DNA from: Candidatus Woesebacteria bacterium GW2011_GWA1_39_21
Lineage (GTDB): Bacteria > Patescibacteriota > Microgenomatia > UBA8517
DNA: 57,479 nucleotides
Assembly (NCBI GenBank): GCA_000993685.1
Contig: LBWP01000009.1
Location: 9,463-66,941, forward strand
Direction of reading: 5' to 3'
Shown: in pieces, positions 129-23,485 of the stretch
How positions within the stretch are numbered: the first letter of the stretch is position 1
Layout: each line of letters starts with the position of its first letter
Notes under the pieces: model-generated
Database searches by the model: none
Seen by the model: only the letters and a program-made list of their open reading frames with translations
What the model was told of the DNA's origin: nothing
Translations under genes and position numbers: made by a program

Positions 129-1571
129 ATGCTCAAAAAATTATTCCTGCCTCTACTACTGTTTTTGTTTTTTTTAGGAAGTGCCAAAGTTGTATCTGCC
201 CAGGTAAACTGCGGTCTATACTGTCCCAACAATTACCCCTCAAGACCCCAAGCACAATGCAGCACGTCAAACCCCAGCCCGACAAGCTGCACCGCAACCA
301 ACTATTATTGCACCGAGTCGCCATTAAGTGCTTGCTATTGTTGTTCAAGCGTACCTCCAACTCCAACTTGTACTCCAGATAACTACTCCTGTAACCCCCA
401 AGACCCGGCCGCCTGGTGCTGCAACTCTTCATATGTTTGTAACGGCTACTGCGCACCATACTCTTCACCCATTCCAACAAATACCACGACACCTTTTCCG
501 TCCACCACGCCAATCCCTTCACCAATAAATACAATTACCCCAGGCGTCTCACCCCAACCTTCCCCACCACCTTCATCCACACCAGGTGTCCCAACAATCA
601 CCCCAACTTATCCAATCTGTACCGGATTTGATGGCCCAAACCCATGCCAACAGTATAACTGTACAGGTACTCCAGCCAGCGCGTGCGAGCAAAACGGAGG
701 AATTTGCCTCAATTCATATTGCTACCCGGCAAATTGCCGTTGTGGCGAAAGCGCCAACGACTGCCCGGATTTCTGGACTTGTAAAACTGATGGCCAAAGC
801 TACTGCAGGGAAGGCACGCCAACTTCCTGCTCCTCCGGTTATATCAACTGTACCCTCGGGCTAGACTCACCCGATTGCACACCGGGATCGACCAACTGTG
901 AAAGAGAGTGTAATACCAGTCTTGCCGTTTGTAGTCTTGCTTATGGAAAATGTTATGTCACGGCAACCTGCGGTTATTTGGAAGACGGAAGGCCTGGTAC
1001 TTGTATCACTGATGACGGAAGCTGCCCCACTAATAGAGACAAGGGTCGGCTCGACTGTGTTGCTGGAAACATCTGTTGTGCCCAACCTCCCGAATGTATC
1101 GGTCGACTCTCAAATACGCCGGGTCAATGTTTTTTTCTTAATTGTCCAACAGATTCGGACTATTTCTGGGAAGGATCAAACCCCCCTTTTTCCGATATTG
1201 GTTGTCCACTATTTCAATCTTGTTGCACCAGGCCGGGGGACGATTGGTTGAATAGATATAAACTCAGTAACCGCTGTGTTACAAACGGAGAACAGGGAAT
1301 TGCAACGGCTATTGGCTGTGTCGCCGTCACCAGTCCCACAGAATTTTTGCGTTTTGTTCTTCCTTGGGCGATCGGCGTCGGCGCAGGAGTTGCCTTTATT
1401 TTAATGATTGTTGCCGGGTACTTAATGATGACTTCAGGTGGTGATCCATACCGTGCACGAGCTGCGAAGGAACTTCTAGGTGCGGCAATTGCAGGACTTT
1501 TAATGATCGTTTTTTCCGTATATCTTCTTGATGTCATCGGCCTTCGAATCTTGCGCCTTCCAGGGCTTTAA
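129..1571 (+). CDS. Cys-rich, Pro/Thr-rich secreted ectodomain with C-terminal two-TM TrbC/VirB2 (T4SS pilin-like) domain
   Basis: Signal peptide MLKKLFLPLLLFLFFLGSAKVVSAQ; C-terminal TM-SGGDPYRARAAKELLGAA-TM hairpin; ATG at 129 (ORF track opens at TTG 123). Confidence 0.75.
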   Translation: MLKKLFLPLLLFLFFLGSAKVVSAQVNCGLYCPNNYPSRPQAQCSTSNPSPTSCTATNYYCTESPLSACYCCSSVPPTPTCTPDNYSCNPQDPAAWCCNSSYVCNGYCAPYSSPIPTNTTTPFPSTTPIPSPINTITPGVSPQPSPPPSSTPGVPTITPTYPICTGFDGPNPCQQYNCTGTPASACEQNGGICLNSYCYPANCRCGESANDCPDFWTCKTDGQSYCREGTPTSCSSGYINCTLGLDSPDCTPGSTNCERECNTSLAVCSLAYGKCYVTATCGYLEDGRPGTCITDDGSCPTNRDKGRLDCVAGNICCAQPPECIGRLSNTPGQCFFLNCPTDSDYFWEGSNPPFSDIGCPLFQSCCTRPGDDWLNRYKLSNRCVTNGEQGIATAIGCVAVTSPTEFLRFVLPWAIGVGAGVAFILMIVAGYLMMTSGGDPYRARAAKELLGAAIAGLLMIVFSVYLLDVIGLRILRLPGL

Positions 1572-1616
1572 AAGTCCCGTTTCCCGAAGACCTCAATGTG
1601 CTAAACTTTATCTGGA

Positions 1617-2567
1617 ATGAAATTAATTTATCGAATTTTATTTTTAGTCTTTTTTTCGTTTCTTTTTGTTTCAATATTTTTTATATCTTTCCCAAGCACA
1701 GCCAAGGCGCAGGCCACACCGGGAACTTGCGCATGCGAGTGGGCGGGGATGCCTGGACCGTCCACAAGTTGTGTACTCGGTTCAAATCCTGTTTCCAATT
1801 GCATCGCAGGTTTCGTTCCCAGTTGTTATCAAGAGACAGTGGGAGGTAGTAATTTCTGTAATTGCCAATGTGTAACCCCAACACCAACTCCGGGACCGGG
1901 AAATTGCAGTTGTACTCAAGTTTCAGGTGTCTGTCAGCCACTTCAGGGACCTGGGTACTGCAATCAATCCGCGGGTTACATTCCAAAATGTAGTACGTTC
2001 GGGAGTAGCTGCAGTTGTATTTGCGTTATTCCAACTCCAACTGTTTACCCGTCAGCCTGGTCCGAATGTAACACTAGGTGCACAGACCCAGCCTACCCTG
2101 TAGGCAACTGTACAAATACGGGAGGAAATCCAGACACAACACGATGTGCAAGACCACCTGCTCCAAACCAGGCTTACGATTGCCAGCTTGGAGGTGGCGC
2201 AACTGCAGATTGTTTTTGCTGCGTTACTCAATTAGTAGACATCTACCCACTAACCCCAAAGGAGGCATTAAGTCCCAGATGCGGGACAGACAGCATCAAC
2301 ACCGCAATCGGTTGCCTTCCGGTTGGTGATAAAAACGCTTTCCTTGCATTTATCTTACGCTGGGCAATCGGGATCTCCGGTGGTGTTTCTTTTCTTTTAA
2401 TTATCTATTCCAGCTTTATGATCATGACTGCCGCCGGTGACAAAAGAAAACTCCAATCGGGAAAAGAGCTATTAACAGCGGCACTGTCCGGATTGATGAT
2501 GATTATTTTCTCGGTTTTCATATTGGATTTTATAGGAATCAGGATTTTGCGACTCCCGGGACTGTAA
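1617..2567 (+). CDS. Cys-rich secreted ectodomain with C-terminal T4SS pilin-like domain (paralogue of the previous gene)
   Basis: Signal peptide, Cys-rich region, C-terminal TM-AAGDKRKLQSGKELL-TM, same IGxRILRLPGL end as the preceding protein. Confidence 0.75.
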   Translation: MKLIYRILFLVFFSFLFVSIFFISFPSTAKAQATPGTCACEWAGMPGPSTSCVLGSNPVSNCIAGFVPSCYQETVGGSNFCNCQCVTPTPTPGPGNCSCTQVSGVCQPLQGPGYCNQSAGYIPKCSTFGSSCSCICVIPTPTVYPSAWSECNTRCTDPAYPVGNCTNTGGNPDTTRCARPPAPNQAYDCQLGGGATADCFCCVTQLVDIYPLTPKEALSPRCGTDSINTAIGCLPVGDKNAFLAFILRWAIGISGGVSFLLIIYSSFMIMTAAGDKRKLQSGKELLTAALSGLMMIIFSVFILDFIGIRILRLPGL

Positions 2568-2664
2568 AGGGTACTAAACAGTTTATCCAACAATCCCAGG
2601 AGTTGTTAAGGCGTTTTGTTCAAAAATTGTATATAATTTAAGATAGCGAATTTATAAATCAAAC

Positions 2665-3276
2665 GTGAGAAGAAAAATATTCAACACACCAATACAGGTT
2701 TTACCAATTCTATTTTTATTCCTGTTTTCAAGACTGTTCTTTGTCGCTCATGTTAATGCTCAGGGCACCTGGGGCTGCACCTCACCACCCGGAAATAATA
2801 CTCCTTGTTATTTTGATCCCAATCAGACTGCCTGTTTTGCCGGCTACAGGTTACCTTCCGGCACCACTCAAATTTGTGCTGATTTGGGGTTTAACAACAA
2901 TTGTGATGCAATTCTGTATTGCGAACGCATTGTTGAAGAAACTCCAGCACCAACATCATCTCAACTTAATCTTCCCGCTATTTATCAAACGATTCAATCG
3001 CAAGGTGGTGCGTTCTCCTTTTCCAATTCTCCCGGGAGCATTGTCTCCGCACTTTTAAAGTACATTTTTCCAATTGCCGGTCTAATCCTTCTTTTGATGC
3101 TTATACTTGGTGGTTACAACATGATGCTCTCGGGCGGTGATCCGAAAAAGGCGGCGTCGGCAAAAGCAATAATTACAACAGCCGCTGTCGGATTTATTCT
3201 TATCTTTTCAGCATATTGGATTGTTAAAATAGTTGCTAACGTACTCGGTCTTGGCGACATTACGAGCACATTTTAA
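2665..3276 (+). CDS. TrbC/VirB2-type pilin-like protein with short Cys-containing ectodomain
   Basis: GTG start, signal peptide, TM-LSGGDPKKAASAKAIITTAAVGF-TM. Confidence 0.7.
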   Translation: MRRKIFNTPIQVLPILFLFLFSRLFFVAHVNAQGTWGCTSPPGNNTPCYFDPNQTACFAGYRLPSGTTQICADLGFNNNCDAILYCERIVEETPAPTSSQLNLPAIYQTIQSQGGAFSFSNSPGSIVSALLKYIFPIAGLILLLMLILGGYNMMLSGGDPKKAASAKAIITTAAVGFILIFSAYWIVKIVANVLGLGDITSTF

Positions 3277-3284
3277 GTTAAAAT

Positions 3285-3379
3285 AAAATACCACGGGCTA
3301 AAGCCCATGGTATTTTGTCGCTTGCGATTAACAAAGTTAATCGCGAAAACTTGCTACATCCACGGCATGAATGCCGTGG
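3285..3379. repeat. Three consecutive hairpins (REP / IS200-end-like palindromic element) between pilin genes 3 and 4
   Basis: AAAATACCACGGGCT-AA-AGCCCATGGTATTTT; GCGATTAAC-AAA-GTTAATCGC; CCACGGCAT-GA-ATGCCGTGG. Confidence 0.65.
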
Positions 3380-3403
3380 TTTTAAGCAAGGTAACAATAA
3401 AAC

Positions 3404-3721
3404 ATGCACTACTTAACCCAAGTAAACATCGGCTCAATCTTTCACTCACCTTTCGGGCAGACAAAGGGTCTTGCCGATTTTGTTTCGGTAGTCCTTTTCA
3501 ACGCCGTTGCTTTGGCTGGGGTAATTCTATTTCTTCTTTTGGTCGTTGGCGGAATTATGATGATTTCTGGCGCCGGAAGTGGAGATAAAGAATCTGTTGC
3601 CCGCGGAAAGAAAGCTGCAACGTCCGCATTGATTGGTTTTTTGATTATTTTCGTAAGTTATTGGATAATAGTAATTGTTCAGACCGTTTTTGGATTTAAT
3701 ATCTTAAATCCAACACCATAA
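3404..3721 (+). CDS. TrbC/VirB2-type pilin-like protein
   Basis: Two TM helices separated by ISGAGSGDKESVARGKKAATSALIGF. Confidence 0.7.
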   Translation: MHYLTQVNIGSIFHSPFGQTKGLADFVSVVLFNAVALAGVILFLLLVVGGIMMISGAGSGDKESVARGKKAATSALIGFLIIFVSYWIIVIVQTVFGFNILNPTP

Positions 3722-3726
3722 GTTTT

Positions 3727-4083
3727 ATGGATAAACTACTCGCTACAGCTTGGGGAACAATCGATGCGCCGCCTGGCGTATCCAGATGGGGAGCCCTAAT
3801 AACTGGAACCGGATCTGGACCACAGAAATTCTTCACCATGGTTGTCAGGACGATGATTGTGGTTGCGGGGATCTATGCTTTTATAAACATCATTCTTGCC
3901 GGATACGACTTTATGTCGGCCGGGGGAAACCCAGAAAAGATGGCCCGCGCTTGGCAAAAAATCTGGCAGACACTTTTGGGGCTGTTAATCGCCGCCGGCT
4001 CTTTTATTTTGGCGGCAATTTTCGGTTGGCTTATTTTCGGAAATCCGAATGCACTTTTGCAAATAACAATTTTCACTCCCTAA
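3727..4083 (+). CDS. TrbC/VirB2-type pilin-like protein
   Basis: Two TM helices around SAGGNPEKMARAWQKIWQTLLGL. Confidence 0.65.
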   Translation: MDKLLATAWGTIDAPPGVSRWGALITGTGSGPQKFFTMVVRTMIVVAGIYAFINIILAGYDFMSAGGNPEKMARAWQKIWQTLLGLLIAAGSFILAAIFGWLIFGNPNALLQITIFTP

Positions 4084-4084
4084 T

Positions 4085-4450
4085 ATGGAAAATTATCTAA
4101 GTCAAAATCCGCTTCAGGTCGGCGGAACAATAAACGGAATCGGTGTCTATGGAAACCCCGGCAATAGTTGGGACATACTATTCAGTGGGGTTTTGTCAAA
4201 AGCAATTGGTCTTCTGACAATTGTTGCCGGAGTTTATTTCATCTTCCTTTTAATTTCCGGAGGTATCGCCTGGATGTCATCGGGGGGTGACAAGGCAAAA
4301 CTAGCAAACGCCCGATCGACGATGTTTTCCGGCGCAATTGGGCTTACGATAGTCGTTGCCGCACTTTTTATCGCACAAATATTCGGTGGGATTATTGATC
4401 TTCCAAATATTCTCAACCCGGCGGCGATTTTGCGGTCACTTGCTCCTTAA
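4085..4450 (+). CDS. TrbC/VirB2-type pilin-like protein
   Basis: Two TM helices around SSGGDKAKLANARSTMFSGAIGL. Confidence 0.7.
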   Translation: MENYLSQNPLQVGGTINGIGVYGNPGNSWDILFSGVLSKAIGLLTIVAGVYFIFLLISGGIAWMSSGGDKAKLANARSTMFSGAIGLTIVVAALFIAQIFGGIIDLPNILNPAAILRSLAP

Positions 4451-4501
4451 ACGCAAGGCGCTTGACATCATAATATCCGATAAAGGATAATATAAGTACT
4501 T

Positions 4502-4831
4502 ATGAAAAATTTACTGGCACAAGTAATTAACATTAACGCCCCTGCGCAGTTTAGCAACCTTCAAAATATCGACTTTGGCGAACTGGTAACTATCGCTATC
4601 ACCTTTGCAATTATTGTTGCAGCTTTAGCTTTTTTCTTTATGCTTATCCTTGGAGGCATCAAATGGATCACCTCCGGTGGAGACAAGGGCAAAATTGAAA
4701 GCGCTAGAAGTCAAATTACAGCTGGACTAATCGGGCTTGTTATAGTTTTCGCTGCGTGGGCAATCCTCAGCATCGTCGAAAACTTCTTCCAAGTTAATCT
4801 AAGAAGTTTTAACCTGAACTTGCTTCGCTAG
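4502..4831 (+). CDS. TrbC/VirB2-type pilin-like protein
   Basis: Two TM helices around GGIKWITSGGDKGKIESARSQITAGLIGL. Confidence 0.75.
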   Translation: MKNLLAQVININAPAQFSNLQNIDFGELVTIAITFAIIVAALAFFFMLILGGIKWITSGGDKGKIESARSQITAGLIGLVIVFAAWAILSIVENFFQVNLRSFNLNLLR

Positions 4832-4863
4832 TTTGGGTTTCCCTTTTTAAAGGGTGAAAGGGG

Positions 4864-5205
4864 GTGGAAAAAATGAATTTATTAGCAACCGGTGATGTCT
4901 TGAACCTTAATGCACCAACAGGATTTGAAAATTTGCAAAATATTTCCTTTGGTTCGTTAGTTGGTTTGGCAATATCGTTTATCTTGATTGTTGCAGCGGT
5001 CGCTTTCTTCTTCATGCTGGTATTGGGTGGTATCAAATGGATCACCTCCGGTGGAGACAAGGGCAAGACTGAAGCAGCAAGAAATCAAATCACAGCTGGT
5101 TTGGTTGGATTGGTAATCGTCTTTGCAGCATGGGCAATATTAACTCTTATCGAAAGCTTCTTCGGAGTGAGTTTGAGAACGTTCACTATTCCGGGAACGC
5201 CGTAA
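4864..5205 (+). CDS. TrbC/VirB2-type pilin-like protein, close paralogue of 4502-4831
   Basis: GGIKWITSGGDKGKTEAARNQITAGLVGLVIVFAAWAIL. Confidence 0.75.
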   Translation: MEKMNLLATGDVLNLNAPTGFENLQNISFGSLVGLAISFILIVAAVAFFFMLVLGGIKWITSGGDKGKTEAARNQITAGLVGLVIVFAAWAILTLIESFFGVSLRTFTIPGTP

Positions 5206-5257: not shown

Positions 5258-5273
5258 GTGCTAAAATTATTTT

Positions 5274-5582
5274 ATGACCAACCCGGTTCCCAGCGTTCAT
5301 GTTGAAGGCAGTGTGGCAACAATTAAAGGTTTCGAATGGATTTTTCAAAATGTTGTTGCATCAGTTCTTTTTTTGGCTGGAATTATCCTTTTTATCATGC
5401 TAATTCTCGGAGGTTTCAAATATCTCACCTCCGCCGGAAACCCGGAAAACGCAGCAGCAGCACAAAAGACAATTACATATGCGATTATTGGAATCGTAAT
5501 TGTGGCGCTGGCTTATTTAATTTTGGTTCTTATTCAGCAGTTCACCGGAGCAAATGTCACACAGTTTACCGTAAACGCATAA
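5274..5582 (+). CDS. TrbC/VirB2-type pilin-like protein
   Basis: Two TM helices around TSAGNPENAAAAQKTITYAIIGI. Confidence 0.7.
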   Translation: MTNPVPSVHVEGSVATIKGFEWIFQNVVASVLFLAGIILFIMLILGGFKYLTSAGNPENAAAAQKTITYAIIGIVIVALAYLILVLIQQFTGANVTQFTVNA

Positions 5583-5715
5583 TATAACAGAGTAGAAGAG
5601 TGTAAGTTTGACACCCTGATACCCCGCAACCCACTTCTTACTCCTATTTTCTATTTCCTAATTTCCTTCTTCTTATACTCTATTCTCTGTCTCCAACCGT
5701 GTGCTAAACTTAGTC

Positions 5716-8700
5716 ATGTTTACAAAGCGGATTTTGAAAACTTTTTTTGCCTTCTGTTTATTTTTTTTTATTTCTGTAACGGAAGCTTCTGCCCAAAGCC
5801 CAGACAATTTTGATTGTAATGGCGGATTCTCCCCACTTTTTTCCGGAACAAGTAGTATTACTTATAAAGAAATTGTTTTAAATACGCCGTCACGAATCGT
5901 TGCCCATATTGTGAAGGTAGACATCACCGACAACAATATTTACTACACAACTACACCAAGGCAATATTTAGGAACCGCCACTTCAGCTTTTTTGGGAAAT
6001 GTCGGGGCGGCTCTGGCAATTAACGGTAGCGGATTTGTTTCGCTAAGCGACCCGCTTGGTCTTAATTCGTATCGGGGTGATGTTTACTCGACCGACAGGA
6101 GTGTTGGTATCGTTGCTTCAATTGACAGAAACGACGACATCAGTATTATGCAAAGCCAACCCAGTCCAATTTGGAGCGTCGTCAGCGGTGTTAATGTTCT
6201 TGTCATGGGTGGACAGGTTGCCAACAAGGTCAGTATGTGTTCACAAACTTCATGTCTAGCTCCAGGGTGCGGTGGACTTGGCGCCACCTATTGTACCGTC
6301 CGTCCAAGAACGTTGATGGGGATTAATTCAAACACTCTAATTATGATTGCGGTTAACGGCGACCTCCCAACCACCCGTGGAGCATCTTTTCTTCAGGGGG
6401 CGCAAATGTTGCGCCAATGCGGAGCGTTAACAGGAATGAATATGGACGGAGGCGGTTCAACAACAATGGTCGCGCAAACACCAAATGCAACCGGAAGGCA
6501 GTTTCTTAATACTCTCGCAAGCGGCGAGAGAACGGTTTCAAACCACTTTGGAGTCTGCATCGGTCCGTGTACAGTCAGTAACCCCTCATACACCTCACCT
6601 TTACCGGAGGGAGAAGCGCGGCCCCGCTACAACAGCGCGCAACCCTATCCTTTTCCTTGTAATAAAACCGCACCATACGATTCCACCTTTCAAGCATCAC
6701 GTGACAATGAATTTCATTCTCTTCGTCCATACCAGGGAAGTCCCTGCGATCCAAATGCGGAAGACCTTGCCATATTTTGTGGAAACGATTTGTTCGTAAC
6801 ACAAAATGTAACCGTAACAAAAAATTTCAACAACGGACCACCAAACTTCCCCATATATTCCTCCGGCGGAACTACGGTCACACCCAATCAACCGCCCAGG
6901 TCACAAGTTGATTATGCTTGTAAATATTGCGAAGGACCCAATCAATGTAGCGACCGGCGTTTTGGTGGTTGCGACCCAGGACTTAATGAGTGTGAAACAA
7001 ACCGTGACTGTAGTGGTTGCCACATCAACAGTAATGGTACAGAAACTTGTTCTTTCACCATAACCAATTCAAAAAATGTAGCTGTTGATGTTTCCGGAGC
7101 CGAGCTTCCAATTATGGGTTACACCGAACCGTCGGTGGGTGCAGACCCGGGGAAACCGAAGGTAATAAATGCCTATAACCCAAACGAGGAAACTGTGGAC
7201 AATGCAACCAAGGTTAATGAATATGTCAGTTGGTATTTAAATGGTATTATCGGTCGGGCCGAATACCCTTATTGGGACCCCGGTTCGGATTGTATGGGAA
7301 AATCAACTGGCCGTCCAGGGACGTGCTCTACCACCCGAGTGTCTGCCGGACAGGTTCAGTGTTTAAACGAATGGCCCGCCCCAATAAGCTGGTTCGCCGA
7401 GCCTTATTATGTTCCCTGGATCATTCCCGACGGAAAAGAACAGTGTGCCGGACAAAATAAATACTGCTGCGTTCACCCAGACTCGCAAAGGTTTCCCGGA
7501 CACCTTTTGCAAACCGATTATTCGGGCCCGGTCAAAAAATTACTTCCCTTCTCGATTCAAAATATGGAAAAGGTTTCAGAAATCAACGATGCTGTTACCT
7601 CTGTCAATACACCCGATCCGGCCCCCGGGACACCCCTTGCTGGAATTAGACATAACCAAGTGGTCGGTTGCGCAATTTCAATTCCTTTCTTCAACGTATT
7701 CGGGTTAAACATCGACTTTGGTTCGGGAATCCCCGCACCCTGTTACAGACAATGGCAGCTTTCTGACTTTAACTCATTTACAAATATAGTTTCCGCACTC
7801 TCAGACCTCGTGAAACGTCAATACCACCTCGCAGACTACAACGGTTTCAGGCCACCAATTGAGGAAGACTATCTCGGCCAAGATTTTTCAAACTTTCTCG
7901 TAAACTACAAATCATGGCGTGGTAATACCTGCATTGCCATTAAAACACCAATTCCGCTTATTGGAACAGTTACGCTTTGCTTTAATTTCTCACTGATAAA
8001 TCCGGCCGTCTTTGGCAACCTCTTTCCTTACGCGCCACTTTCTTCAACAGAAGACCGTCTTGGTGACATTAGGATTAAATCTGCTGGTGTTTCACCAATC
8101 AGTGTTTCTCCAAATTTCCGAATAATTAGCGTTAGTGTAACCGACATCCAAAACGCCAACCTCTTCGTTCCGCATATGGAAGAAACATACGACCTATCAA
8201 CTTTGTTGCAAAAGACTTTTGCGTATAAAGACGCTGCCTTAGACGAAATGCCAACAAGCGGGTTTATTCCTGAATCGCCCTACTGTTCATACCGTGAGGT
8301 GCGAAACAATCCGGGAGACGATCTGTTTGCGGGTACGCTACGTGCACGCATTAACTACACGGCACAGGTATTTTGCACTTACTTTCTTTGGGGCGATGGC
8401 ACGCCGGCAGCTCCTTATGGAAACCTATGTGAGAACCTTCTCGGCGGAAGGTGTTTGGTGAATGATGGCCAAGCGTGCGACACCAACTATGGTCAATATG
8501 ATTGTGAACTAGGTCGAATCTGTGTAACCGGAACATGTAACAGCAACCCCAACGTCTCAGGTGAAACGGAATGTGAATCATCAACAGATCCAAACATTTC
8601 AGGAGTTTGTGTCCCCGTTGATTGGACATGTACTACAACGGGGGGTGGAGTATGGAGTCCGGGCACATACTGCAACGGAGACGTAAACTTTAAATGTGCC

Positions 8701-9702
8701 CCCTCAATTGATACAATCTGTACACCAAATTACTCAACACCCCCACAAACACAAAGTTGTACAAACCAGCTTATGGTTAACATGAAGCTTGAAACAAGAA
8801 CGCCGCTCGCCAATGAGGTTTGGACAAAACTAGTTGTTGGTTCCACTGGAATCTTTCGGAAAATGTTTCCCAAAATCGGAGGTGGAAACACAATCGAGGG
8901 AATCTATGACATGCCCGCATCGTCTCAGGTTGGATATTCGGACGAATCGGGCGACCCAATCTACGCGGGTGACCCCACCAACCAAACCCCGGGTGACAGA
9001 GCGCAAATTTACTTTCCCCACATCGGAGGAATTAAGGAATATTTCTTAACCGGAATACAGACACTGCTTCGTCCGAAAGGGTATGGCACCCAACCGTTGT
9101 TTTGTGAAGGTAGAGATTGTGTTGAGGGAAACTTAATTCCAAGCGTTTCCGGAAATTATAGGGTACCGGGTGGTAAATCTATCTGCGAAGTCGCGGACGA
9201 ATACAATGTTCCCTGCGAATATCTCAGAGCAATTTGGTTTATAGAAACCGGTAACGCTACTGGTTGCGGCCCCAACTCACCAGATGGCCCAATGGCTATT
9301 ACCGATGGTGATATGCAATATATTAACAACGGTCCAGTATCTCTTGATCGTTGTAACCTATCCGACGCCTGGGAACTTGCCGCTCGCACTCTTCTTTGGA
9401 AAAAATACATCAACCAACAGGGTTGGCAAACCCCCGGCGCCGAAATCGTCTTTTCGTTTGACAAAACCAGCTGGGACCTCATCGCCGTTGGTCAATATAA
9501 TCAATGCAATGAGTGTAAAGCCAGTGCCCAATCACAATATCGCTGGGGTACGGGTAGATCTTACTGCGACGCCGCGATCTATCTAATCCAAAACGACTTC
9601 CCCTTCGGATGGCCGTGGCAAGGCGACCGATCGTTCATTCCAAACGGCCCCAACTGGTATTGTTGCTATAACAACACCACAGGCGTCTGTGAGCCTAATT
9701 AA
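5716..9702 (+). CDS. Large secreted protein with phosphodiester glycosidase (NAGPA-like) N-terminal region and lysozyme/transglycosylase-like C-terminal region
   Basis: Signal peptide MFTKRILKTFFAFCLFFFISVTEASA; MIAVNGDLPTTRGASFLQGAQMLRQCGALTGMNMDGGGSTTM is NAGPA-like; C-terminal EVADEYNVPCEYLRAIWFIETGN is SLT-like. Confidence 0.65.
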   Translation: MFTKRILKTFFAFCLFFFISVTEASAQSPDNFDCNGGFSPLFSGTSSITYKEIVLNTPSRIVAHIVKVDITDNNIYYTTTPRQYLGTATSAFLGNVGAALAINGSGFVSLSDPLGLNSYRGDVYSTDRSVGIVASIDRNDDISIMQSQPSPIWSVVSGVNVLVMGGQVANKVSMCSQTSCLAPGCGGLGATYCTVRPRTLMGINSNTLIMIAVNGDLPTTRGASFLQGAQMLRQCGALTGMNMDGGGSTTMVAQTPNATGRQFLNTLASGERTVSNHFGVCIGPCTVSNPSYTSPLPEGEARPRYNSAQPYPFPCNKTAPYDSTFQASRDNEFHSLRPYQGSPCDPNAEDLAIFCGNDLFVTQNVTVTKNFNNGPPNFPIYSSGGTTVTPNQPPRSQVDYACKYCEGPNQCSDRRFGGCDPGLNECETNRDCSGCHINSNGTETCSFTITNSKNVAVDVSGAELPIMGYTEPSVGADPGKPKVINAYNPNEETVDNATKVNEYVSWYLNGIIGRAEYPYWDPGSDCMGKSTGRPGTCSTTRVSAGQVQCLNEWPAPISWFAEPYYVPWIIPDGKEQCAGQNKYCCVHPDSQRFPGHLLQTDYSGPVKKLLPFSIQNMEKVSEINDAVTSVNTPDPAPGTPLAGIRHNQVVGCAISIPFFNVFGLNIDFGSGIPAPCYRQWQLSDFNSFTNIVSALSDLVKRQYHLADYNGFRPPIEEDYLGQDFSNFLVNYKSWRGNTCIAIKTPIPLIGTVTLCFNFSLINPAVFGNLFPYAPLSSTEDRLGDIRIKSAGVSPISVSPNFRIISVSVTDIQNANLFVPHMEETYDLSTLLQKTFAYKDAALDEMPTSGFIPESPYCSYREVRNNPGDDLFAGTLRARINYTAQVFCTYFLWGDGTPAAPYGNLCENLLGGRCLVNDGQACDTNYGQYDCELGRICVTGTCNSNPNVSGETECESSTDPNISGVCVPVDWTCTTTGGGVWSPGTYCNGDVNFKCAPSIDTICTPNYSTPPQTQSCTNQLMVNMKLETRTPLANEVWTKLVVGSTGIFRKMFPKIGGGNTIEGIYDMPASSQVGYSDESGDPIYAGDPTNQTPGDRAQIYFPHIGGIKEYFLTGIQTLLRPKGYGTQPLFCEGRDCVEGNLIPSVSGNYRVPGGKSICEVADEYNVPCEYLRAIWFIETGNATGCGPNSPDGPMAITDGDMQYINNGPVSLDRCNLSDAWELAARTLLWKKYINQQGWQTPGAEIVFSFDKTSWDLIAVGQYNQCNECKASAQSQYRWGTGRSYCDAAIYLIQNDFPFGWPWQGDRSFIPNGPNWYCCYNNTTGVCEPN

Positions 9703-14219: not shown

Positions 14220-14328
14220 AAATTATACACCGATTTTACACTTTCTGAGAGGAAAATGCCAAAATCCAAACAATCTGTATTGCCTACATTGACTTTTTTT
14301 GATAGAACGTCAAAAATATCAACTTAAC

Positions 14329-15181
14329 ATGAGTGCCGACAATGGTATCGAACACAGGTCAGAAAGTACTAACTTTGTAAATTTATATAATCCCGATTAT
14401 TTTTTTGGCATTTTTACTAAAGACAACGGCCCGTACAAATACCGGCTTGATAGTAATTTTAATAGAATAATTTCATGGAAACATGATCCTCTTCACTACC
14501 TTTCGTCCATGGTGGGTTGTGATATAACCAGCCGGCAGGATGAGGAAATTAAAGATAGATACAAAAAAATCTATTTTTTCGAATCCGACTTGAGAAGAAC
14601 AACCGCAGCTCCGCTATCCAAACCGATAGTTCAACGCGTTTCTAACAAAGACGACATAGAAAGTCTTGCAAAAAAATATCAAGATAAATATGACAAGTAT
14701 GGAATTGGTTTAGAACTCGTCCCAATAGAAACTGCCAAATATGTAGAACGTGACATGTGGGAATACGAGGAAAGAATTGCCAGGTACGAAGGTAAGTCTC
14801 ACCCACCAAGGACAGTGACTTATTGGGACAATTTTACTTTTATTAATCGATCAAAAAAACAACCCCGACGTTTGGCTAGATTTTGGACCGACAATACTAG
14901 TAAGAATTCGCGAGTCTGATGGAAATTTGCTTGAAGACCGTGGGGTGTTTGCAAAAAATTTTGTTAGGTTTTTTAACATTGTTGACAAAAGCATTAAGGT
15001 TTTTTACGGGATAGAACAAAAAAGTCTTCCGTCAAAAAAAATTATCTTACAACCCGATGAAAGAAATATGCCTGAATACTTGGCCACTTGTTCTTATTGC
15101 AAAAATGATTATTTAACAAACCAAACTCTTGCTTGTCCGTCGTGTGGAGCCTCCAAACCGATTTTTATAACGAGAAAATAG
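14329..15181 (+). pseudogene. Zinc-ribbon-containing protein split by a +1 frame change at an A7 tract
   Basis: Frame 1 reads ...FINRSKK; skipping one A at 14853-14859 gives ...SKNNPDVWLDFGPTILVRIRESDGNLLEDRGVF..., joining the downstream ORF with CSYCKNDY...CPSCGASKP. Confidence 0.6.
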
Positions 15182-15327
15182 CCTTTCAATACATTCATAA
15201 ATAACATGTTTTACGCTAAAAAAATATTTGTCAAAAATTTGTTTTTTGTTGTATCTGTGAAAAAGCGTGTAATTGAAAAATATGATTTGGCAAGGCGCTT
15301 AATAAAATATTAATTCAAATCACTTTT

Positions 15328-15975
15328 TCACTTTGGGGAATACATTTGTTCTATTGAACTTTGTAGTTTTTCATCAAGTTCTTTCATCACCACCTCTTTT
15401 GGCTTTCTTATGCTTATTCTTGTGCTTATTCTTGAACCGTAGTCCCATTTTTTATTCGTATCGTTATGACAACTTAAGTATAAGCCAGATTGATCTCTAG
15501 GTTTTATTTCCGGTAGACTCCCCCAATCCAAGTTGTTGTTGTACCAATGCTTTCTCTTAATAAGAAAACTTACGGAAAGACTCCTTCCTTCTGGCATATC
15601 TAATCTGCACTCCTTCCATGTTTCTTGAAAAGAGTGTCCAGTATGGGCAAGAGTTGTCGTTCCGCCCTCGTCGCGAACACTTTCTAGTTCCTCACGCTTC
15701 TCGTTTTCAATATTTTTCCACCCAACAAAATGAGCATAGGAATTAAAAACGTCCCTATTAATTTCGTTTAAAACTTTCGGTATTTCCTTCAATAGCAGTG
15801 GATAATTGGCTGCTGCAAATTCTCTCTTCTTGTTTTCTTCCTCGTTTCTAACTCTTTCCCCAGCGGCAACTATTGCCGCTTTCCTTTCTTCTTCCTTCAG
15901 CTTTTCTAGCCTGGAATTTTCAATAAAATTTATTCCTTGAGTAACTTTTTCTCTTAACTGTTCATATTTTGACAT
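15328..15975 (-). CDS. Hypothetical protein, coiled-coil-rich N-terminus
   Basis: ORF with TATAAT 6 nt before ATG. Confidence 0.55.
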   Translation of the reverse strand: MSKYEQLREKVTQGINFIENSRLEKLKEEERKAAIVAAGERVRNEEENKKREFAAANYPLLLKEIPKVLNEINRDVFNSYAHFVGWKNIENEKREELESVRDEGGTTTLAHTGHSFQETWKECRLDMPEGRSLSVSFLIKRKHWYNNNLDWGSLPEIKPRDQSGLYLSCHNDTNKKWDYGSRISTRISIRKPKEVVMKELDEKLQSSIEQMYSPK

Positions 15976-16148
15976 GGGCTCATTATAACACTATAAGCCA
16001 GTTATCACCATTGTTTGTTGGTCTGTCGGCAATTCTTTCATACTATGAGTACAAATCCCTTTTCCTATTCGTGAAAAGGCCTCGTGATTGAAAAATTAGT
16101 TTCATAGGATAGAGTAAAAGAAAAAAGTTGTTTTATCTCGAGATCTAC

Positions 16149-16370
16149 TTAAAAATATCCCTTAAACTCCTCCAGAGTCATTGAAGCTTGAGTTAAAATG
16201 CTGTTAAAAGTTCCTTTTGCGATTTCCTTATGGTTGGGAACAATTACTGTTTGAAGTTTACCTCTGTAAAAACCTCTGTATTTGATATGACTTCCCTTCT
16301 GTGAAACTTGACTAAAACCTGCTCTCTTCAGTACTTTTGTGACATCTTTAGAAGAGTACAACTTAGGCAT
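16149..16370 (-). CDS. hicA: HicA-family mRNA interferase toxin
   Basis: MPKLYSSKDVTKVLKRAGFSQVSQKGSHIKYRG...TVIVPNHKEIAKGTFNSILTQASMTLEEF. Confidence 0.9.
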   Translation of the reverse strand: MPKLYSSKDVTKVLKRAGFSQVSQKGSHIKYRGFYRGKLQTVIVPNHKEIAKGTFNSILTQASMTLEEFKGYF

Positions 16371-16578
16371 AAATTTGTTTTATTTCAGTATTTTGGGGAA
16401 TTATTGAATGGGGAATTTCCACGCCTTCGTCCTCCAACAGAAGATCCAAGGCCTCCTGAAGGTTTTTTACTGCATCATCTTTGGTTTTACCTTGGCTTGC
16501 CAATTCAAACCCTAGGGTTTTTGCTACAAACCATTTCCCCTCTTTCCAAACAACAACAGGTAACATTTTCTTTATCAT
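16363..16578 (-). CDS. hicB: HicB-family antitoxin
   Basis: KEGKWFVAKTLGFELASQGKTKDDAVKNLQEALDLLLED; 8-nt overlap with hicA. Confidence 0.85.
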   Translation of the reverse strand: MIKKMLPVVVWKEGKWFVAKTLGFELASQGKTKDDAVKNLQEALDLLLEDEGVEIPHSIIPQNTEIKQIYA

Positions 16579-16774
16579 AATATAAATATTATATCACCGA
16601 TTTTACACTTTTTGGGAATAATTTGCATTGCAACAACAATCTTTAACCCTTTCACCTTTTTACTCTTTCGCCTTCTTATCTTGTTCCGTGAAAAAGCCAA
16701 GTCATTGAAAAATAGATTTCATGGGATAGAGTAAAAGAGTGGAAGAGTGTAAGAGCGGGAGTAAATACAAATTT

Positions 16775-17140
16775 ATGCAAGACAAACAAAGTTACAAAAA
16801 GTTAATTGTTTATCAAAAGTCAAAAGAGTTGGTGCTTTTTGTTTATGAGATTACAAGAGAGTTTCCCAAAACCGAGGAGTATGTACTTTTACCCCAAATG
16901 CGAAGGGCAGTAGTTTCCATAATGGCGAATATTGTAGAAGGTTATGCAAAAAGTAGGAAAGAGCTTATAAGATTTCTTTCAATAAGCATTGGATCGTTAA
17001 CAGAATTAGAGGTCTATCTCGACCTTTGCCTTGAACTAAATTACCTTAAACAAAAACGGTATGATAAAGGTTATAATTTACTTATTGAAGTAAAGAAACT
17101 TTTATATGGTTTTCAAAAATCTTTGAGGAACGGGGTGTAG
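16775..17140 (+). CDS. Four-helix bundle protein (23S rRNA IVP / Avd-like)
   Basis: YKKLIVYQKSKELVLFVYEITREFPKTEEYVLLPQMRRAVVSIMANIVEGYAKSRKELIRFLSISIGSLTELEVYLDL. Confidence 0.85.
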   Translation: MQDKQSYKKLIVYQKSKELVLFVYEITREFPKTEEYVLLPQMRRAVVSIMANIVEGYAKSRKELIRFLSISIGSLTELEVYLDLCLELNYLKQKRYDKGYNLLIEVKKLLYGFQKSLRNGV

Positions 17141-17192: not shown

Positions 17193-18347
17193 ATGGAACA
17201 ACATCCAATTCCACAACAAATAGCTTCGTATCAGTTCAAACTGGTTGGCGACATGACCTTAAAGCAGTTTGTCCAGCTTGCAGCTGGGGCATTAATATCG
17301 CTTCTTTTGTATGCCTCGCCCCTCCACCCCTTTATTAAATGGCCTCTAATTATCGTCTCGTTTTTATTCGGTGTTGCTTTGGCATTTCTTCCCATCGAGG
17401 ACAGACCATTAAGCACCTGGATTTTTATTTTCTTTCGTTCAATTTACTCACCGACTTATTTTGTCTGGAATAAATCAAAAAAACCGATTAATTATTTCAT
17501 GCCAGAAGAAACATCTGCAAAACCAGCCTCTATTAAAATTGCTGACAGAAAAGAGAAAGTCCAAGAGCTTCTTAATCCGGTAATTAAAAAAACTGAAGTG
17601 ACGAGCAAGCTCGAAGAAAAAGAAAAAACGTTTCTTACCAAGCTTTCGCAAAGCTTCATTGCCCCAAACACTACGGTTGTTATTTCAACCACTCCGATGC
17701 ATACTTTTGTTTCTAATCCGCAAGCTCAACCATTCATACCAACCCAACCACAACCTTTTGTCCAAAAAGTTCAACCCGTAATCACACAGCAGACAAGCGT
17801 CCGGCCGACAGTTGTCGTTCCTACTCCACCCAAAGCTGGGTTTGATAAAATACAGGGTTATCAAATCACACAACCAGGCGCGCAAAGTACAAACGGCGGG
17901 GCATTTTCGGGAACAACCAAGGTTATACCTATGACATATCCAAAACAGGATGTTCAAAAAACTGCAACCACACGCTTTTCGCAAGACGTAATTCCACCGC
18001 TTCCAGCAACAAGGGAAAACGTTGTCGTCGGCCAGGTTCTTGACCAGTTCGGACAGACCGTCGAGGGTGCAATTTTGGAAATAAAAGACGTTGACGGAAG
18101 GCCCGTTAGGGCGCTTCGCAGTAATAAACTCGGGCACTTTATGATTGCCACCCCCTTAATAGAGGGTGAGTATATTATTCAAACAGAAAAAGATGGGTAC
18201 GAGTTCGAGCCGCTCAAACTGAAGGTCGAAAACAAAATTATTCCCGCTATTGCAATTTGGGCAAAGCTGGGTGGCATTAAAAAAGAGGAGGAAAAACCGG
18301 TTGAATTAACCGAGCAACAAAAGTTTATGCAGGATTACAAACTGTAA
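17193..18347 (+). CDS. PrgI-like (VirB3-type) membrane protein with C-terminal carboxypeptidase-regulatory-like domain
   Basis: N-terminal PQQIASYQFKLVGDMTLKQFVQLAAGALISLLLY; C-terminal VVVGQVLDQFGQTVEGAILEIKDVDGRPVRALRSNKLGHFMIATPLIEGEY. Confidence 0.7.
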   Translation: MEQHPIPQQIASYQFKLVGDMTLKQFVQLAAGALISLLLYASPLHPFIKWPLIIVSFLFGVALAFLPIEDRPLSTWIFIFFRSIYSPTYFVWNKSKKPINYFMPEETSAKPASIKIADRKEKVQELLNPVIKKTEVTSKLEEKEKTFLTKLSQSFIAPNTTVVISTTPMHTFVSNPQAQPFIPTQPQPFVQKVQPVITQQTSVRPTVVVPTPPKAGFDKIQGYQITQPGAQSTNGGAFSGTTKVIPMTYPKQDVQKTATTRFSQDVIPPLPATRENVVVGQVLDQFGQTVEGAILEIKDVDGRPVRALRSNKLGHFMIATPLIEGEYIIQTEKDGYEFEPLKLKVENKIIPAIAIWAKLGGIKKEEEKPVELTEQQKFMQDYKL

Positions 18348-18436: not shown

Positions 18437-19093
18437 ATGAAGCTACCATTTTTATCAACACCAGACAAACCGTTATACGACACGACACAGGACCGCATCC
18501 CGATTGCGGACATCATCCACGACATCGTTCTTTTTAAAGACGGCGGTGCGGCTCTAATTGTCGAGTCAACGTCGCTTAACTTTGGCCTTCTTAATGAAAT
18601 GGAACAAGAGGCGGTCATTTCTTCTTATGCAGGCCTTTTAAACTCATTTAATTTCCCCGTTCAAATTCTTGTTCGCTCGCAGAGAAAAGATATCGGAAAC
18701 TATATGCGCTTTCTCGATGAAGCAAAGAAAAAGATTTCAAATAACAAGCTTATGCTTCTGATAAACGACTATCAGAGGTTCATTATCGAGTCGGTCAAGA
18801 AAAAGAACGTCCTTAGTAAAAGCTTCTATTTGGTCGTACCCTTCTCACGCGTTGAGCTGGGCTTGGCAAAAGTCGTCATGGGTTTGGGTTCAAAAAACTC
18901 AACAATTCCCTTTCCCAAAAGTTATGTCTTAAAAAAGGCCCGGGTTTCGCTCTATCCTAAAAGAGACCATCTGATTCGACAGGCGAGACGTTTGGGGGTT
19001 GAACTGCGGCAGTTAACAACACCCGAATTAATTGAGCTTTTCTATCATATTTATAATCCAATTCCTCCGCACAAGCGGAAGCGGACAGGATAA
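18437..19093 (+). CDS. TraC-like T4SS accessory domain protein
   Basis: PIADIIHDIVLFKDGGAALIVESTSLNFGLLNEMEQEAVISSYAGLLNSFNFPVQILVRSQ; precedes virB4. Confidence 0.6.
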   Translation: MKLPFLSTPDKPLYDTTQDRIPIADIIHDIVLFKDGGAALIVESTSLNFGLLNEMEQEAVISSYAGLLNSFNFPVQILVRSQRKDIGNYMRFLDEAKKKISNNKLMLLINDYQRFIIESVKKKNVLSKSFYLVVPFSRVELGLAKVVMGLGSKNSTIPFPKSYVLKKARVSLYPKRDHLIRQARRLGVELRQLTTPELIELFYHIYNPIPPHKRKRTG

Positions 19094-19312
19094 GATTAAT
19101 AAAACTTATAACTCAAAGTCCCTACGGGTCGGTGACCCTCAGGACCGGAGACAAAAAGCAAAAGTTCAATCAAAAAGTTAAAAACAAATTTGAAAAACAC
19201 CAATAAACGGTTCTATTTGTAAAATTGTAAAACAAGAGCAGGAGTGAGGAAGAGCATGAGAATTTATTTACATCTTTTACTCTTTCACCCTTTTACTCTT
19301 TTATACTAACCC

Positions 19313-21505
19313 ATGAAACTTACAGAAATTTTCAAAAAAAAGAAAAGTGTGCCACGGGCAAATCCTGTCACTGAAACGGACGTTAAATCCCCCAGCGCCA
19401 GCGCTACCGGCCAGCAACAAACAACCGCTCAAACGTTCTTGAACAAAAACGGGGACCAAAAACCAACACCCGTTGTTTCCCGCGCCGGTCTTGATGAAGA
19501 AGATCTGGATATTTTAGCCAAGCAGGGCAGCACCAAACCAGAGATTATCGACCCCAACAAAACCGTGGCTGATGGGATGACTGTTCTTGACGTGGTTGCC
19601 CCAAAAACTTTTGAGATCGATTTTGACTATATCAAAATAAACGGGGTCTACTTTCGGACTCTTTTTGTTTCAGGCTACCCACGCTTTGTTTCCCCGGGGT
19701 GGTTGGAACAGATTATCAATTTCGACAGCTCTCTTGATATTTCTTTCTACGTCTACCCTGTTGAGGTTAAGGGTGTTTTGGAAGATTTGCGTCATAAGAT
19801 TGCCGAAATGGAAGCTGAAATTGCAACCGACCTTGAGCGTGGGCGTATTGTAAACGCCACAACACAAGCAAAGCTTGATGATGCACAACTTCTTCAGGAG
19901 GAGTTGGTGAAAGGCTCCGAGCACTTTTACGAATTTGCTTTCTATATCACTATCCCTGCACAGGATTTGGAAGATTTAAACGACATTACAAAGCAGGTTC
20001 AGGCAACATTGGGGTCACTTCTTGTTAGTGCGCAAGCAGCAACCCTTGATATGGAAAACGGCTTTTACTCAACCCTTCCCTTTGCAGCCGACAGGCTTTC
20101 AATTACACGAAACATGGATACCACCTCGCTTTCAACAACGTTTCCACTAACTTCCGCAGAGCTTTCATCCGACAGCGGAGTGTTGTATGGAATTAATCCT
20201 CTGAACGAGTCGTTTGTCATTTTTGACCGCTTCTCGATGGAAAACTCAAACATGGCTATTTTTGCCACATCTGGTGCCGGAAAAAGTTATTTCGTCAAAC
20301 TCGAATCTCTACGTTCGTTAATGTTGGGAACAGAGGTGATTATCATTGACCCCGAGGCTGAATACAAAGATCTTTGCGCTGCCGTTGGGGGACAGTACAT
20401 CACTTTCTCGTATAGCTCACTGTCGAAAATTAACCCCTTTGATTTATCACAAATTTACGAAGAGGGAGAAAACCAGCTCGGATTAAAGGTGCTTTCGCTA
20501 CACGCCTTATTTAAAGTAATCATGGGCGCGCTTAATCCGATGCAAGAGGCTCTTTTGGACCACGCACTGGTCGAAACATATCGCGCAAAGGGAATTACTC
20601 AGGACCCGGCAACACAAAAGAAAGAACCTCCGCTGATGGAGGATTTATACAAAATACTGGTCGGAATGGAAACCGAACCAGCACTTGATCTGGCGGCAAG
20701 AATTGAAAAATTTGTCAAGGGAAGCTTCATCGGTATTTTTGATCAACAGACCAACGTCGAAATCAATAATCCTTTCACCGTCTTTTCCGTACGCGAAGTG
20801 CAAGATGCCCTGCGGCCAATCGCAATGTTCATCATCCTTGAGTTTATCTGGACAAAAGTAAAGAGAGATCTTAAAAAGCGACTTCTTGTCGTTGACGAGG
20901 CGTGGCACATGATGCGCTACCCCGACTCGGCACAGTTTATGTGGTCGATCGTCAAAAGAGCACGCAAGTACTACTTAGGGTTGACTACAATCACCCAGGA
21001 CGTCGAAGATTTCTTGACTCAAGATATCGGAAAGGCAATCGTCACCAACTCGGCAATTAGACTTCTTCTCAAACAGTCGCCCGCAGCGATCGACAGGGTT
21101 GCCGAGGTTTTTTATCTCTCTCAGGGAGAAAAACAGCTTTTGCTCGGCGCCAACATTGGTGAAGGAATTTTCTTTGCCGGCAACCACCACGTTCCAATCT
21201 ATATTGTCTCTTCTCCCGAAGAACATAAACTAATTTCAACCAAACCTGCGGACGTGATAAGAAAACAGCAGGAAGAGGCTTTAGCGAAAAAAGAAAAAGA
21301 GAAAATTGATGCCGCCCCGGTTCTACAAACAAATAAAACAGTTGCCTCACCCGATTTCGCGAAAAACGCTTCGGTTGTCGCAATATCCACACCAGTAAAT
21401 ATTGGAATAGCAACAACCGCCCCCCCCGACATTTTTGACAAGAAAGTTGACCTGACACAAAAAAGCCCCGCCGATGTTCAAAAAACAATCGCCAATAAAC
21501 AATAG
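19313..21505 (+). CDS. virB4: VirB4/TraC-type T4SS ATPase
   Basis: Walker A ATSGAGKSYFVKLE, Walker B KRLLVVDEAWHMMR, downstream TQDVEDFL motif. Confidence 0.85.
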   Translation: MKLTEIFKKKKSVPRANPVTETDVKSPSASATGQQQTTAQTFLNKNGDQKPTPVVSRAGLDEEDLDILAKQGSTKPEIIDPNKTVADGMTVLDVVAPKTFEIDFDYIKINGVYFRTLFVSGYPRFVSPGWLEQIINFDSSLDISFYVYPVEVKGVLEDLRHKIAEMEAEIATDLERGRIVNATTQAKLDDAQLLQEELVKGSEHFYEFAFYITIPAQDLEDLNDITKQVQATLGSLLVSAQAATLDMENGFYSTLPFAADRLSITRNMDTTSLSTTFPLTSAELSSDSGVLYGINPLNESFVIFDRFSMENSNMAIFATSGAGKSYFVKLESLRSLMLGTEVIIIDPEAEYKDLCAAVGGQYITFSYSSLSKINPFDLSQIYEEGENQLGLKVLSLHALFKVIMGALNPMQEALLDHALVETYRAKGITQDPATQKKEPPLMEDLYKILVGMETEPALDLAARIEKFVKGSFIGIFDQQTNVEINNPFTVFSVREVQDALRPIAMFIILEFIWTKVKRDLKKRLLVVDEAWHMMRYPDSAQFMWSIVKRARKYYLGLTTITQDVEDFLTQDIGKAIVTNSAIRLLLKQSPAAIDRVAEVFYLSQGEKQLLLGANIGEGIFFAGNHHVPIYIVSSPEEHKLISTKPADVIRKQQEEALAKKEKEKIDAAPVLQTNKTVASPDFAKNASVVAISTPVNIGIATTAPPDIFDKKVDLTQKSPADVQKTIANKQ

Positions 21506-21514
21506 TTTTCTTAA

Positions 21515-23485
21515 ATGGAAGATAACAAAAGCAATCCATCAAAACAAACTCAAGGGCGAATTGTAATTCGAATTTCAGACTCGATTCCCCAACCCATAAG
21601 TGATAGAAAAACAAAAGACGCCGCCGCCGCCATTGATGCCGCAACTGGACAAACCCCACTATCTCGATCAAATCAAAAAGCAATCGAGGAGACCGCGAGG
21701 AAGTTGTGGAGGATGGGAACAGACCCTGGAAAGTTAAAACAATCAATCAATAGTTCCTCAGCAACCCTGACAGAGAAAGATAAGGGCAGTCTTTTGCAAA
21801 TTAGCGAAGAAATTGAAAAACTCAATAAAGTCTTTCCACAAACGACGCAAAAGTTTCAGTCACAAGTTGACCCAAGATCTCAGGTGGAGGTTCAAGAGCT
21901 TGCTGGGGGAGAACCACCCCACATTGTTCACGGCTTACAGTTACAAAAAACTCAAAGGGGTGTTCAGGTTGCTCCATCAGAAACCAAAAATCCTCAACTC
22001 TACAATTCACAGTATCTAAATCAGGCAAGAAGATATAGTGAATCACTAACAAACCATGCGCAACGACATTATCAAGAGTACCTAGTTACTACTGTTACTT
22101 ACCAGGAGCCGGATATCGTACCGCCAAACATTGGATCAACACCACGGACATCGGGGTTTGAAAGCGGATCGTCGTTTACGCAAGGATCTGCCTTTCAAAC
22201 ACTACGAGACAGTTTTCAAAAAGTTGCGGGCTCGGCTTCAACATATGGTTCACAAATCGCAAGCAACGCCGTGGGCGCAGCAAAAATTTCAAGCCAAAAT
22301 GCAATAAAACAAGGATTAAACAAACTGGCTTCGGGTTTTCAGCTGTTTCTGGCAAGAGCACGATTGTATGCAAAAATCGCTAAGTGGCTAATTTTGGCCT
22401 TTTTTGCCTGGCTGACAACTGTGATCATTACAACAATTATCTGGGGAATGGGGTTTATCGCCCTGACAATTGTTATTCTAATCATTATTAACTCCGGGGC
22501 ATATGTTGTTCCACCGGGTGGTTTTACTGGAGATTTTGCATCTAATCCTTCTTCTGTTATCAGGGTAACAAAAACTGCAAATCCTTCGGGGCGCCTGCCA
22601 AACGGGCAACAGATGATTAGTTATGAAGTCAATATCACGTCTTCAAGTGACACAATAACAAACATCAGTGTTAATGATAACTGCGTAATTCTTCCAAACG
22701 GGACGTGTCCGCCTATGGAAAGCATCAGGGCGGGTTTAACTTCATCACTACCTTCACTCACACCATATTCATCCTTCACCGCCCTACAAAGCTTTATCAG
22801 CAGCGTCTCAATCGGTGGTTCCGATCCGTTTGTGATCACCTACACCAGGGCTTACAATCTTTCAGACGCCACCGCCTCAGATTTCTTTAACGTAACCGGA
22901 ACGGTAGCGGGACAAGGTGAAACAGGCACTGGAAGGACTTCGTCCTGCTTCGGCAATTGTCCATCCGGTTGTTTCGAGTTTGTGGGAACCTGGCCATCAA
23001 GTCCTCGTTTCGTTCTTGAGCAGGCAATTCTCAATGTGGCAGGACAGCACCCAACATATATGGGTAAGGTTTGTTCAGCCGGTACAATCAGACTCGGATA
23101 TGACGAGAGCAAGGTGCTCTATTGTGGTTGGTTTGCTAACGGACAGGGTGGTTCAGACGTAGACATTTGGTTCGCAGCAAGGGGTGGATGTCTAATAAAT
23201 CTTGGTGTTACGGAATATCTATTGGCACACGAGATTGCTCACTATTTAGCAACATACTACCCCGGCGCTTATCAATCTTATTTGGACGATACCGCTTTTA
23301 ACGAAAGACCCATCTGCACATATGTTGAACCCAATCATCCAGCGTCTGAGGACTTTGCAGAAATAATGGGGCTGTACGTCAACGACAACCTGGGGTCAAC
23401 TTGTATACCCAACGGGTTCGCAGCAAGGTATCCAATCAGTTTTGAGTTTGCGCGCTGCAGGATTTTTGAAGAAGGATGCAACTAA
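21515..23485 (+). CDS. Membrane-anchored protein with C-terminal HEXXH metallopeptidase-like motif
   Basis: TM near residue 290; EYLLAHEIAHYLATYYPGAY and downstream ASEDFAEIMGLY. Confidence 0.6.
   Translation: MEDNKSNPSKQTQGRIVIRISDSIPQPISDRKTKDAAAAIDAATGQTPLSRSNQKAIEETARKLWRMGTDPGKLKQSINSSSATLTEKDKGSLLQISEEIEKLNKVFPQTTQKFQSQVDPRSQVEVQELAGGEPPHIVHGLQLQKTQRGVQVAPSETKNPQLYNSQYLNQARRYSESLTNHAQRHYQEYLVTTVTYQEPDIVPPNIGSTPRTSGFESGSSFTQGSAFQTLRDSFQKVAGSASTYGSQIASNAVGAAKISSQNAIKQGLNKLASGFQLFLARARLYAKIAKWLILAFFAWLTTVIITTIIWGMGFIALTIVILIIINSGAYVVPPGGFTGDFASNPSSVIRVTKTANPSGRLPNGQQMISYEVNITSSSDTITNISVNDNCVILPNGTCPPMESIRAGLTSSLPSLTPYSSFTALQSFISSVSIGGSDPFVITYTRAYNLSDATASDFFNVTGTVAGQGETGTGRTSSCFGNCPSGCFEFVGTWPSSPRFVLEQAILNVAGQHPTYMGKVCSAGTIRLGYDESKVLYCGWFANGQGGSDVDIWFAARGGCLINLGVTEYLLAHEIAHYLATYYPGAYQSYLDDTAFNERPICTYVEPNHPASEDFAEIMGLYVNDNLGSTCIPNGFAARYPISFEFARCRIFEEGCN

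Follow-up and report, generated by a model that had tools for sequence, protein, structure and literature searches.

Genetic Context of the Locus

Type IV secretion systems (T4SSs) were found in 2,417 of 3,035 Patescibacteria genomes, with a VirB4 clade nested in the MPF-FATA type that is accompanied by TrsD, PrgI/VirB3 and VirB6; their VirB2-like pilins form arrays of 2-11, and Microgenomatia and Saccharimonadia are enriched in such arrays (Quinonero-Coronel et al. 2025, PMC12102498). Few relaxases are associated with these systems, their type IV coupling proteins (T4CPs) are mostly encoded elsewhere, and dnaN and dnaA are among their most frequent neighbours (PMC12102498). In the Saccharibacterium Southlakia epibionticum, the T4SS (SEML1_0006-0019) was tested experimentally and is essential for epibiotic growth on the host, without recognisable coupling and relaxase proteins (PMC10633639). 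Here, we describe a T4SS locus (positions 123-23485, adjoining dnaN/dnaA) within a stretch of 57,479 nucleotides, hereafter the window, from Candidatus Woesebacteria bacterium GW2011_GWA1_39_21 (genome of 1.04 Mb, 92% complete), and in particular a large hypervariable gene located between those for its VirB6-like and PrgI-like proteins, which we call the slot gene.

The locus belongs almost certainly to this known lineage, the MPF-FATA-type T4SS of Patescibacteria. Its gene order is nine pilins, a NAGPA-domain protein, the VirB6-like protein, the slot gene, PrgI, TrsD, VirB4 and a metallopeptidase, and in relatives the order found was pilins, NAGPA protein, VirB6, one large minus-strand open reading frame (ORF), PrgI, TrsD, VirB4, peptidase and dnaN. 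It shares with the Patescibacteria clade (PMC12102498) VirB4 and VirB2-like arrays and, by tentative assignment, TrsD, PrgI/VirB3 and a VirB6-like protein, along with the lack of a relaxase in most cases, a T4CP encoded elsewhere and the dnaA/dnaN neighbourhood seen in Microgenomatia. With the system of S. epibionticum (PMC10633639) it has in common, by description and not by gene comparison, a pilin array, a monoderm-type T4SS and the absence of a recognisable coupling protein or relaxase. A first-pass annotation of the window had proposed a chromosomally fixed apparatus for protein export, host attachment or DNA uptake, which is not new, as it agrees with both reports (PMC12102498, PMC10633639). 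However, no hypervariable minus-strand gene appears in the main text of PMC12102498. The apparatus is already known, and the slot gene is the part apparently unreported: it is undescribed in the literature searched, although Table S4 of PMC12102498 (genes near virB4), a supplement, lay outside that search, so prior notice there is possible.

Conserved Position and Divergent Sequence of the Slot Gene

The slot gene (12009-14219, minus strand), a 736-aa ORF that the first-pass annotation had not listed, lies tail-to-tail with the gene of the VirB6-like protein (10080-11840, plus strand), and it is its position that is conserved, not its sequence. A large minus-strand gene, encoding from 440 to 1586 aa, was present at this place in each of the 35 loci where both VirB6 and PrgI genes could be recognised, with a median of 20 bp between its stop and that of VirB6 (32 unique loci). 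In a whole-genome search, the relatives recovered for the slot protein of the window likewise adjoin VirB6. Nearly all slot proteins, including the 736-aa protein of the window, lack a predicted membrane segment. Seen from the window only, positions 12009-16580 could be taken for an inserted cargo island, a view that was rejected because the large minus-strand ORF recurs in relatives.

Similarity between pairs of loci was assessed by blastp at 1e-3, with duplicates removed for slot pairs. All pairs (100%) were alignable for VirB4, VirB6, PrgI, TrsD and dnaN; for the slot protein, only 34 of the 903 unique pairs (3.8%) were similar, and 21 clusters were obtained. Loci L027 and L033, with VirB4 proteins 92% identical, encode unrelated slot proteins, and the supported clade that they form with L048 on the VirB4 tree carries three different slot types. 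When the shared slot types were mapped on this tree, 16 changes were counted, where the minimum is 8 and shuffled data gave 19-26. Judged from these sequences, slot types conflict with the VirB4 tree, being tied to ancestry and yet frequently replaced. Comparison across slot clusters with hhalign gave one strong link and otherwise weak colinear signals, above those of reversed decoys; this analysis did not establish that all slot families descend from one ancestor.

Replacement of the Slot Gene between Close Relatives

In the sibling loci L031 and L035, DNA identity was 94.8% in the flank that reaches the end of VirB6 and 89.4% in the other one, which starts within the N-terminal part of the slot gene. 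Between these flanks there were around 1.7 kb of unrelated DNA, into which fall the last residues of VirB6 and two thirds of the slot protein, on its C-terminal side. The first 190 slot residues, which were retained, showed a nonsynonymous rate (dN) of 0.20 and a synonymous rate (dS) of 0.34, a ratio of about 0.6, compared to 0.06-0.27 in the neighbouring genes. When the C-terminal part of the L035 slot protein was searched against 137 genomes of the class, a single relative was found, in the slot of another family. A second pair, L026 and L032 (VirB4 94% identical), aligned only along the 60 or so N-terminal slot residues, and the bodies of the two proteins matched different other genomes.

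The tract replaced between L031 and L035 also alters approximately the last 25-30 residues of VirB6 (L031:5750-5839 and its equivalent in L035), a hint that the slot protein and the tail of VirB6 are coupled.

The pattern seen in the slot gene recalls polymorphic toxin systems (PMC3482391), in which a related N-terminus is likewise combined with a swapped C-terminus (here, in L031/L035 and L026/L032) and alleles are exchanged at a fixed place. Unlike them, the slot gene encodes neither a toxin nor a trafficking domain of a known kind, and no immunity gene accompanies it consistently. The distance from the slot gene to PrgI was below 170 bp in 10 of 31 loci, too short for an immunity gene to fit between the two in those cases.

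Nature of the Slot Protein

With a retained N-terminus and an exchanged C-terminus, and under relaxed or diversifying selection, this soluble product of a secretion locus resembles a polymorphic substrate of the T4SS or a host-specificity factor. The slot gene keeps a fixed place, but the C-terminal part of its large soluble product is swapped by recombination and the remainder evolves very fast. That the protein is a delivered substrate of the T4SS is a proposal that we make tentatively, as slightly less likely than not. In the fuller version, the gene would be a dedicated polymorphic effector fixed between VirB6 and PrgI, and would have an N-terminal region for recruitment, C-terminal modules that can be exchanged, and a diversity generated by recombination and host selection; this version is plausible and put forward with slightly more reserve.

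Several observations weigh against the delivery of the slot protein. The gene was absent in four loci of the class with at least 4 kb available upstream of PrgI, two of which (L046 and L097) look to be the same species, and it was seen only in the class of the source genome. In the protein, neither a toxin domain nor a fold or a translocation signal could be recognised, and the AlphaFold2 models were poor (mean pLDDT, a per-residue confidence score, of 52.9 and 49.4). T4SS substrates are normally recruited by a T4CP, and here the lone VirD4-like gene is located elsewhere. Besides, the divergence of the slot protein, the secretion of which is a prediction, would by itself also fit a fast-evolving cytoplasmic assembly factor.

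Other searches gave no clue to its identity: no convincing family match was found in Pfam, NCBIfam, PADLOC or PHROGs, and the AlphaFold2 models of two slot families matched no fold in the PDB. Loci of other classes yielded no recognisable slot gene. In four of these (L123, L124, L126, L128), the interval between the VirB6-like and VirB3-like genes contains one or two plus-strand ORFs for soluble proteins of about 370-530 aa, weakly similar to each other, and these ORFs might be the counterpart of the slot gene.

The chief alternative is that the slot protein is a fast-evolving cytoplasmic factor involved in assembly, as a chaperone or in regulation of the T4SS, perhaps touching the VirB6 tail and not exported at all. 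Such a role would suit a soluble, single-copy product whose gene is nearly always present and directly adjoins VirB6, and also the inclusion of the VirB6 C-terminal tail in the tract replaced between L031 and L035; in addition, the weak profile-profile signals described above hint at a single, very diverged family. However, the partners of such a factor, VirB6, PrgI, TrsD and VirB4, are all well conserved, and the wholesale C-terminal swap in siblings, together with the patchy sharing of types across lineages, would be unusual for an assembly factor, so that we regard this alternative as possible though rather doubtful.

It is unlikely, in our opinion, that the VirB6-PrgI gap is a mere hotspot for integration or recombination that houses unrelated cargo. 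The many slot types without detectable mutual similarity would be expected from it, as would the S23/IVP genes and small extra ORFs that pile up in this interval in about half of the loci. Nevertheless, the gap always holds a single large ORF of similar size, on the same strand and tail-to-tail with VirB6, and the relatives recovered by the genome search occupy this same slot. Neither a defence (PADLOC) nor a phage (PHROGs) origin of the slot gene found support.

Components of the T4SS and Neighbouring Genes

Nine pilin-like genes had been recognised in the first-pass annotation, all in the plus strand, and the profile searches bear this out to a large extent. Six of them exceeded the cut-off of the Pfam T4SS_pilin family, PF18895 (123-1571, 2e-6; 2665-3276, 1.5e-11; 3404-3721, 3e-6; 4502-4831, 1.8e-8; 4864-5205, 8.9e-9; and 5274-5582, 1.1e-11), another one fell slightly under it (4085-4450, 1.1e-5, 25.9 vs. 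26.6 bits), and two were weak and below it (1617-2567, 0.035; 3727-4083, 0.0037). The first protein bears a Cys-rich ectodomain followed by a C-terminal T4SS_pilin domain, and the second shows the same architecture. An array of VirB2-like pilins, a feature of the Patescibacteria/MPF-FATA T4SS, is thus present here. Divergent from the first pilin gene is a gene for a SpoIID-domain coiled-coil protein (window 1-66; L050:7897-9528, minus strand), which includes a masked N stretch.

The identification of VirB4 (19313-21505, plus strand) was confirmed by the NCBIfam equivalog of monoderm VirB4, NF045971 (4.7e-111, 372 vs. a cut-off of 325 bits), by PF19044 (4e-30) and by a match to the solved VirB4 structure 4ag5 (1.3e-48). 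Its closest public relatives belong to Candidatus Woesebacteria and other Microgenomates. In several relatives, VirB4 contains an intein of approximately 500-600 aa with a LAGLIDADG endonuclease at the Walker A motif (L048:7481-11068, plus strand; L049:7604-11119, plus strand; L089:7923-11594, minus strand; Pfam Intein_splicing and LAGLIDADG_3), and we found no paper on inteins in VirB4 of these bacteria.

Three further assignments are tentative. The PrgI-like protein (17193-18347, plus strand), which carries a C-terminal CarboxypepD_reg domain, has its position beside VirB4 conserved in relatives, although its match to PF12666 (1.4e-4, 22.8 bits) is below the cut-off of 27. The 218-aa protein first described as TraC-like (18437-19093, plus strand) forms a conserved family and matches TrsD instead (NF041427, 5e-6, far under the cut-off). 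The VirB6-like protein is polytopic, and its family and position are kept in relatives; it had no match in Pfam, NCBIfam or the PDB and was assigned by its topology and position. PrgI, TrsD, VirB6 and three of the pilins, which are below curated cut-offs or unmatched, are thus named partly from where they lie and from their conservation.

The secreted giant of 1333 aa (5701-9702, plus strand) had been considered similar to wall hydrolases, but a NAGPA domain was found instead (PF09992, 8.6e-20) and no recognised wall hydrolase. It consists of a family-conserved core and a variable C-terminus, and it is homologous to the protein at the equivalent place in 14 relatives. Its C-terminal 184 aa matched no solved structure in a PDB sequence search, which leaves the lysozyme-like reading of this end unsupported.

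Downstream of VirB4, the metalloprotease proposed at first was recognised as a membrane-tethered extracellular metallopeptidase of 656 aa (21515-23485, plus strand), by an HExxH motif located after the membrane anchor. The protein at this place is modular, with a C-terminal HExxH in some genomes, an M23 peptidase in L049:11120-12514 (1.2e-17) and, in L014:11853-14726, a DnaJ domain close to the N-terminus; counts of HExxH vs. M23 forms came from simple patterns and are rough, as they missed the Pfam-confirmed M23 of L049.

Between the slot gene and PrgI, there are small ORFs (14299-16578) without Pfam match and with none found in the sampled relatives by tblastn, followed by a gene for an S23/IVP four-helix, bAvd-like protein (16739-17140, plus strand; PF05635, 1.1e-33). 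Genes of this S23/IVP type recur in the T4SS locus of L013, L014, L017, L027 and L099, mostly between the slot gene and PrgI. Beyond the locus are dnaN (24047-25174, minus strand), conserved beside VirB4 in relatives, and dnaA (25437-26882, minus strand), assigned by its DnaA sequence and also a conserved neighbour. A putative oriC, an element also noted in the first-pass annotation, lies between them, with three DnaA boxes TTATCCACA at 25304, 25371 and 25383 (25304-25391, minus strand).

Chromosomal Linkage and Function of the Apparatus

The window contains no relaxase or coupling protein, as initially reported, and none is present in the locus. Neither was found in the 9.5 kb that precede the window, where the first gene upstream is that of the SpoIID-domain protein and where membrane proteins and, as assigned by eye, SmpB and a ComF-like protein are also encoded. 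Relaxases of PF03432 were detected in none of 56 genomes, the source genome included, and PF08751 had no match in the source genome; searches with PF01076 and PF13814 (MOB_V, MOB_L) were also negative, but the controls for both likewise failed to match. The claim that there is no coupling protein holds for the locus and not for the genome, in which one VirD4-like ATPase of 777 aa (TrwB_AAD_bind, 6e-10) is encoded on a separate contig.

VirB4 was present in 52 of 56 relatives and in 41 of 44 genomes of the phylum, the T4SS pilin family in 149 of 153 phylum genomes, and VirB4 adjoins dnaN in 42 of the 44 unique loci of the class with enough downstream sequence. As VirB4 and the pilins are near-universal and the linkage to dnaN is this constant, the apparatus appears to be chromosomally fixed, and the non-conjugative reading advanced at the outset is the best one. 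A host-directed, non-conjugative function is, in our judgement, very probable.

Import of DNA, in the manner of the archaeal Ced/Ted systems and as a supply of nucleotides or templates, is a rather improbable function for this T4SS. It would need no relaxase, Patescibacteria often lack nucleotide synthesis (PMC12102498), and VirB4 gave weak matches to CedB/CedD models; however, the CedB match is far under its cut-off, and both the hypervariable gene and the secreted wall-active proteins would be left unexplained. Integration of a conjugative or mobile element near oriC, already disfavoured, is very improbable despite the VirD4-like ATPase in the genome and a VirB4 family named from conjugative elements, given the negative relaxase searches, the class-wide linkage to dnaN and the presence of VirB4 in nearly all genomes searched.

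Conclusions

Overall, the locus is probably best explained as a chromosomally fixed, monoderm-type T4SS with a polymorphic slot protein. VirB4, PrgI, TrsD and the VirB6-like protein would form the translocon of the inner membrane, the divergent VirB2-like pilins would build a surface fibre or channel, and the NAGPA-domain protein and the tethered metallopeptidase would probably open the wall of the epibiont or of the host locally. While the parts and their linkage are shown directly, the function that we infer is interaction with the host, and not conjugation.

The T4SS of Patescibacteria is essential in the sole member tested, and its cargo is the question on which the slot gene bears. If our proposal is true, the slot effector would be the first candidate substrate of a Patescibacteria T4SS known to us. 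With its fixed position and hypervariable sequence, the gene is a concrete candidate, open to testing, for a substrate or a determinant of host range in these uncultured parasites, which form a very large group.

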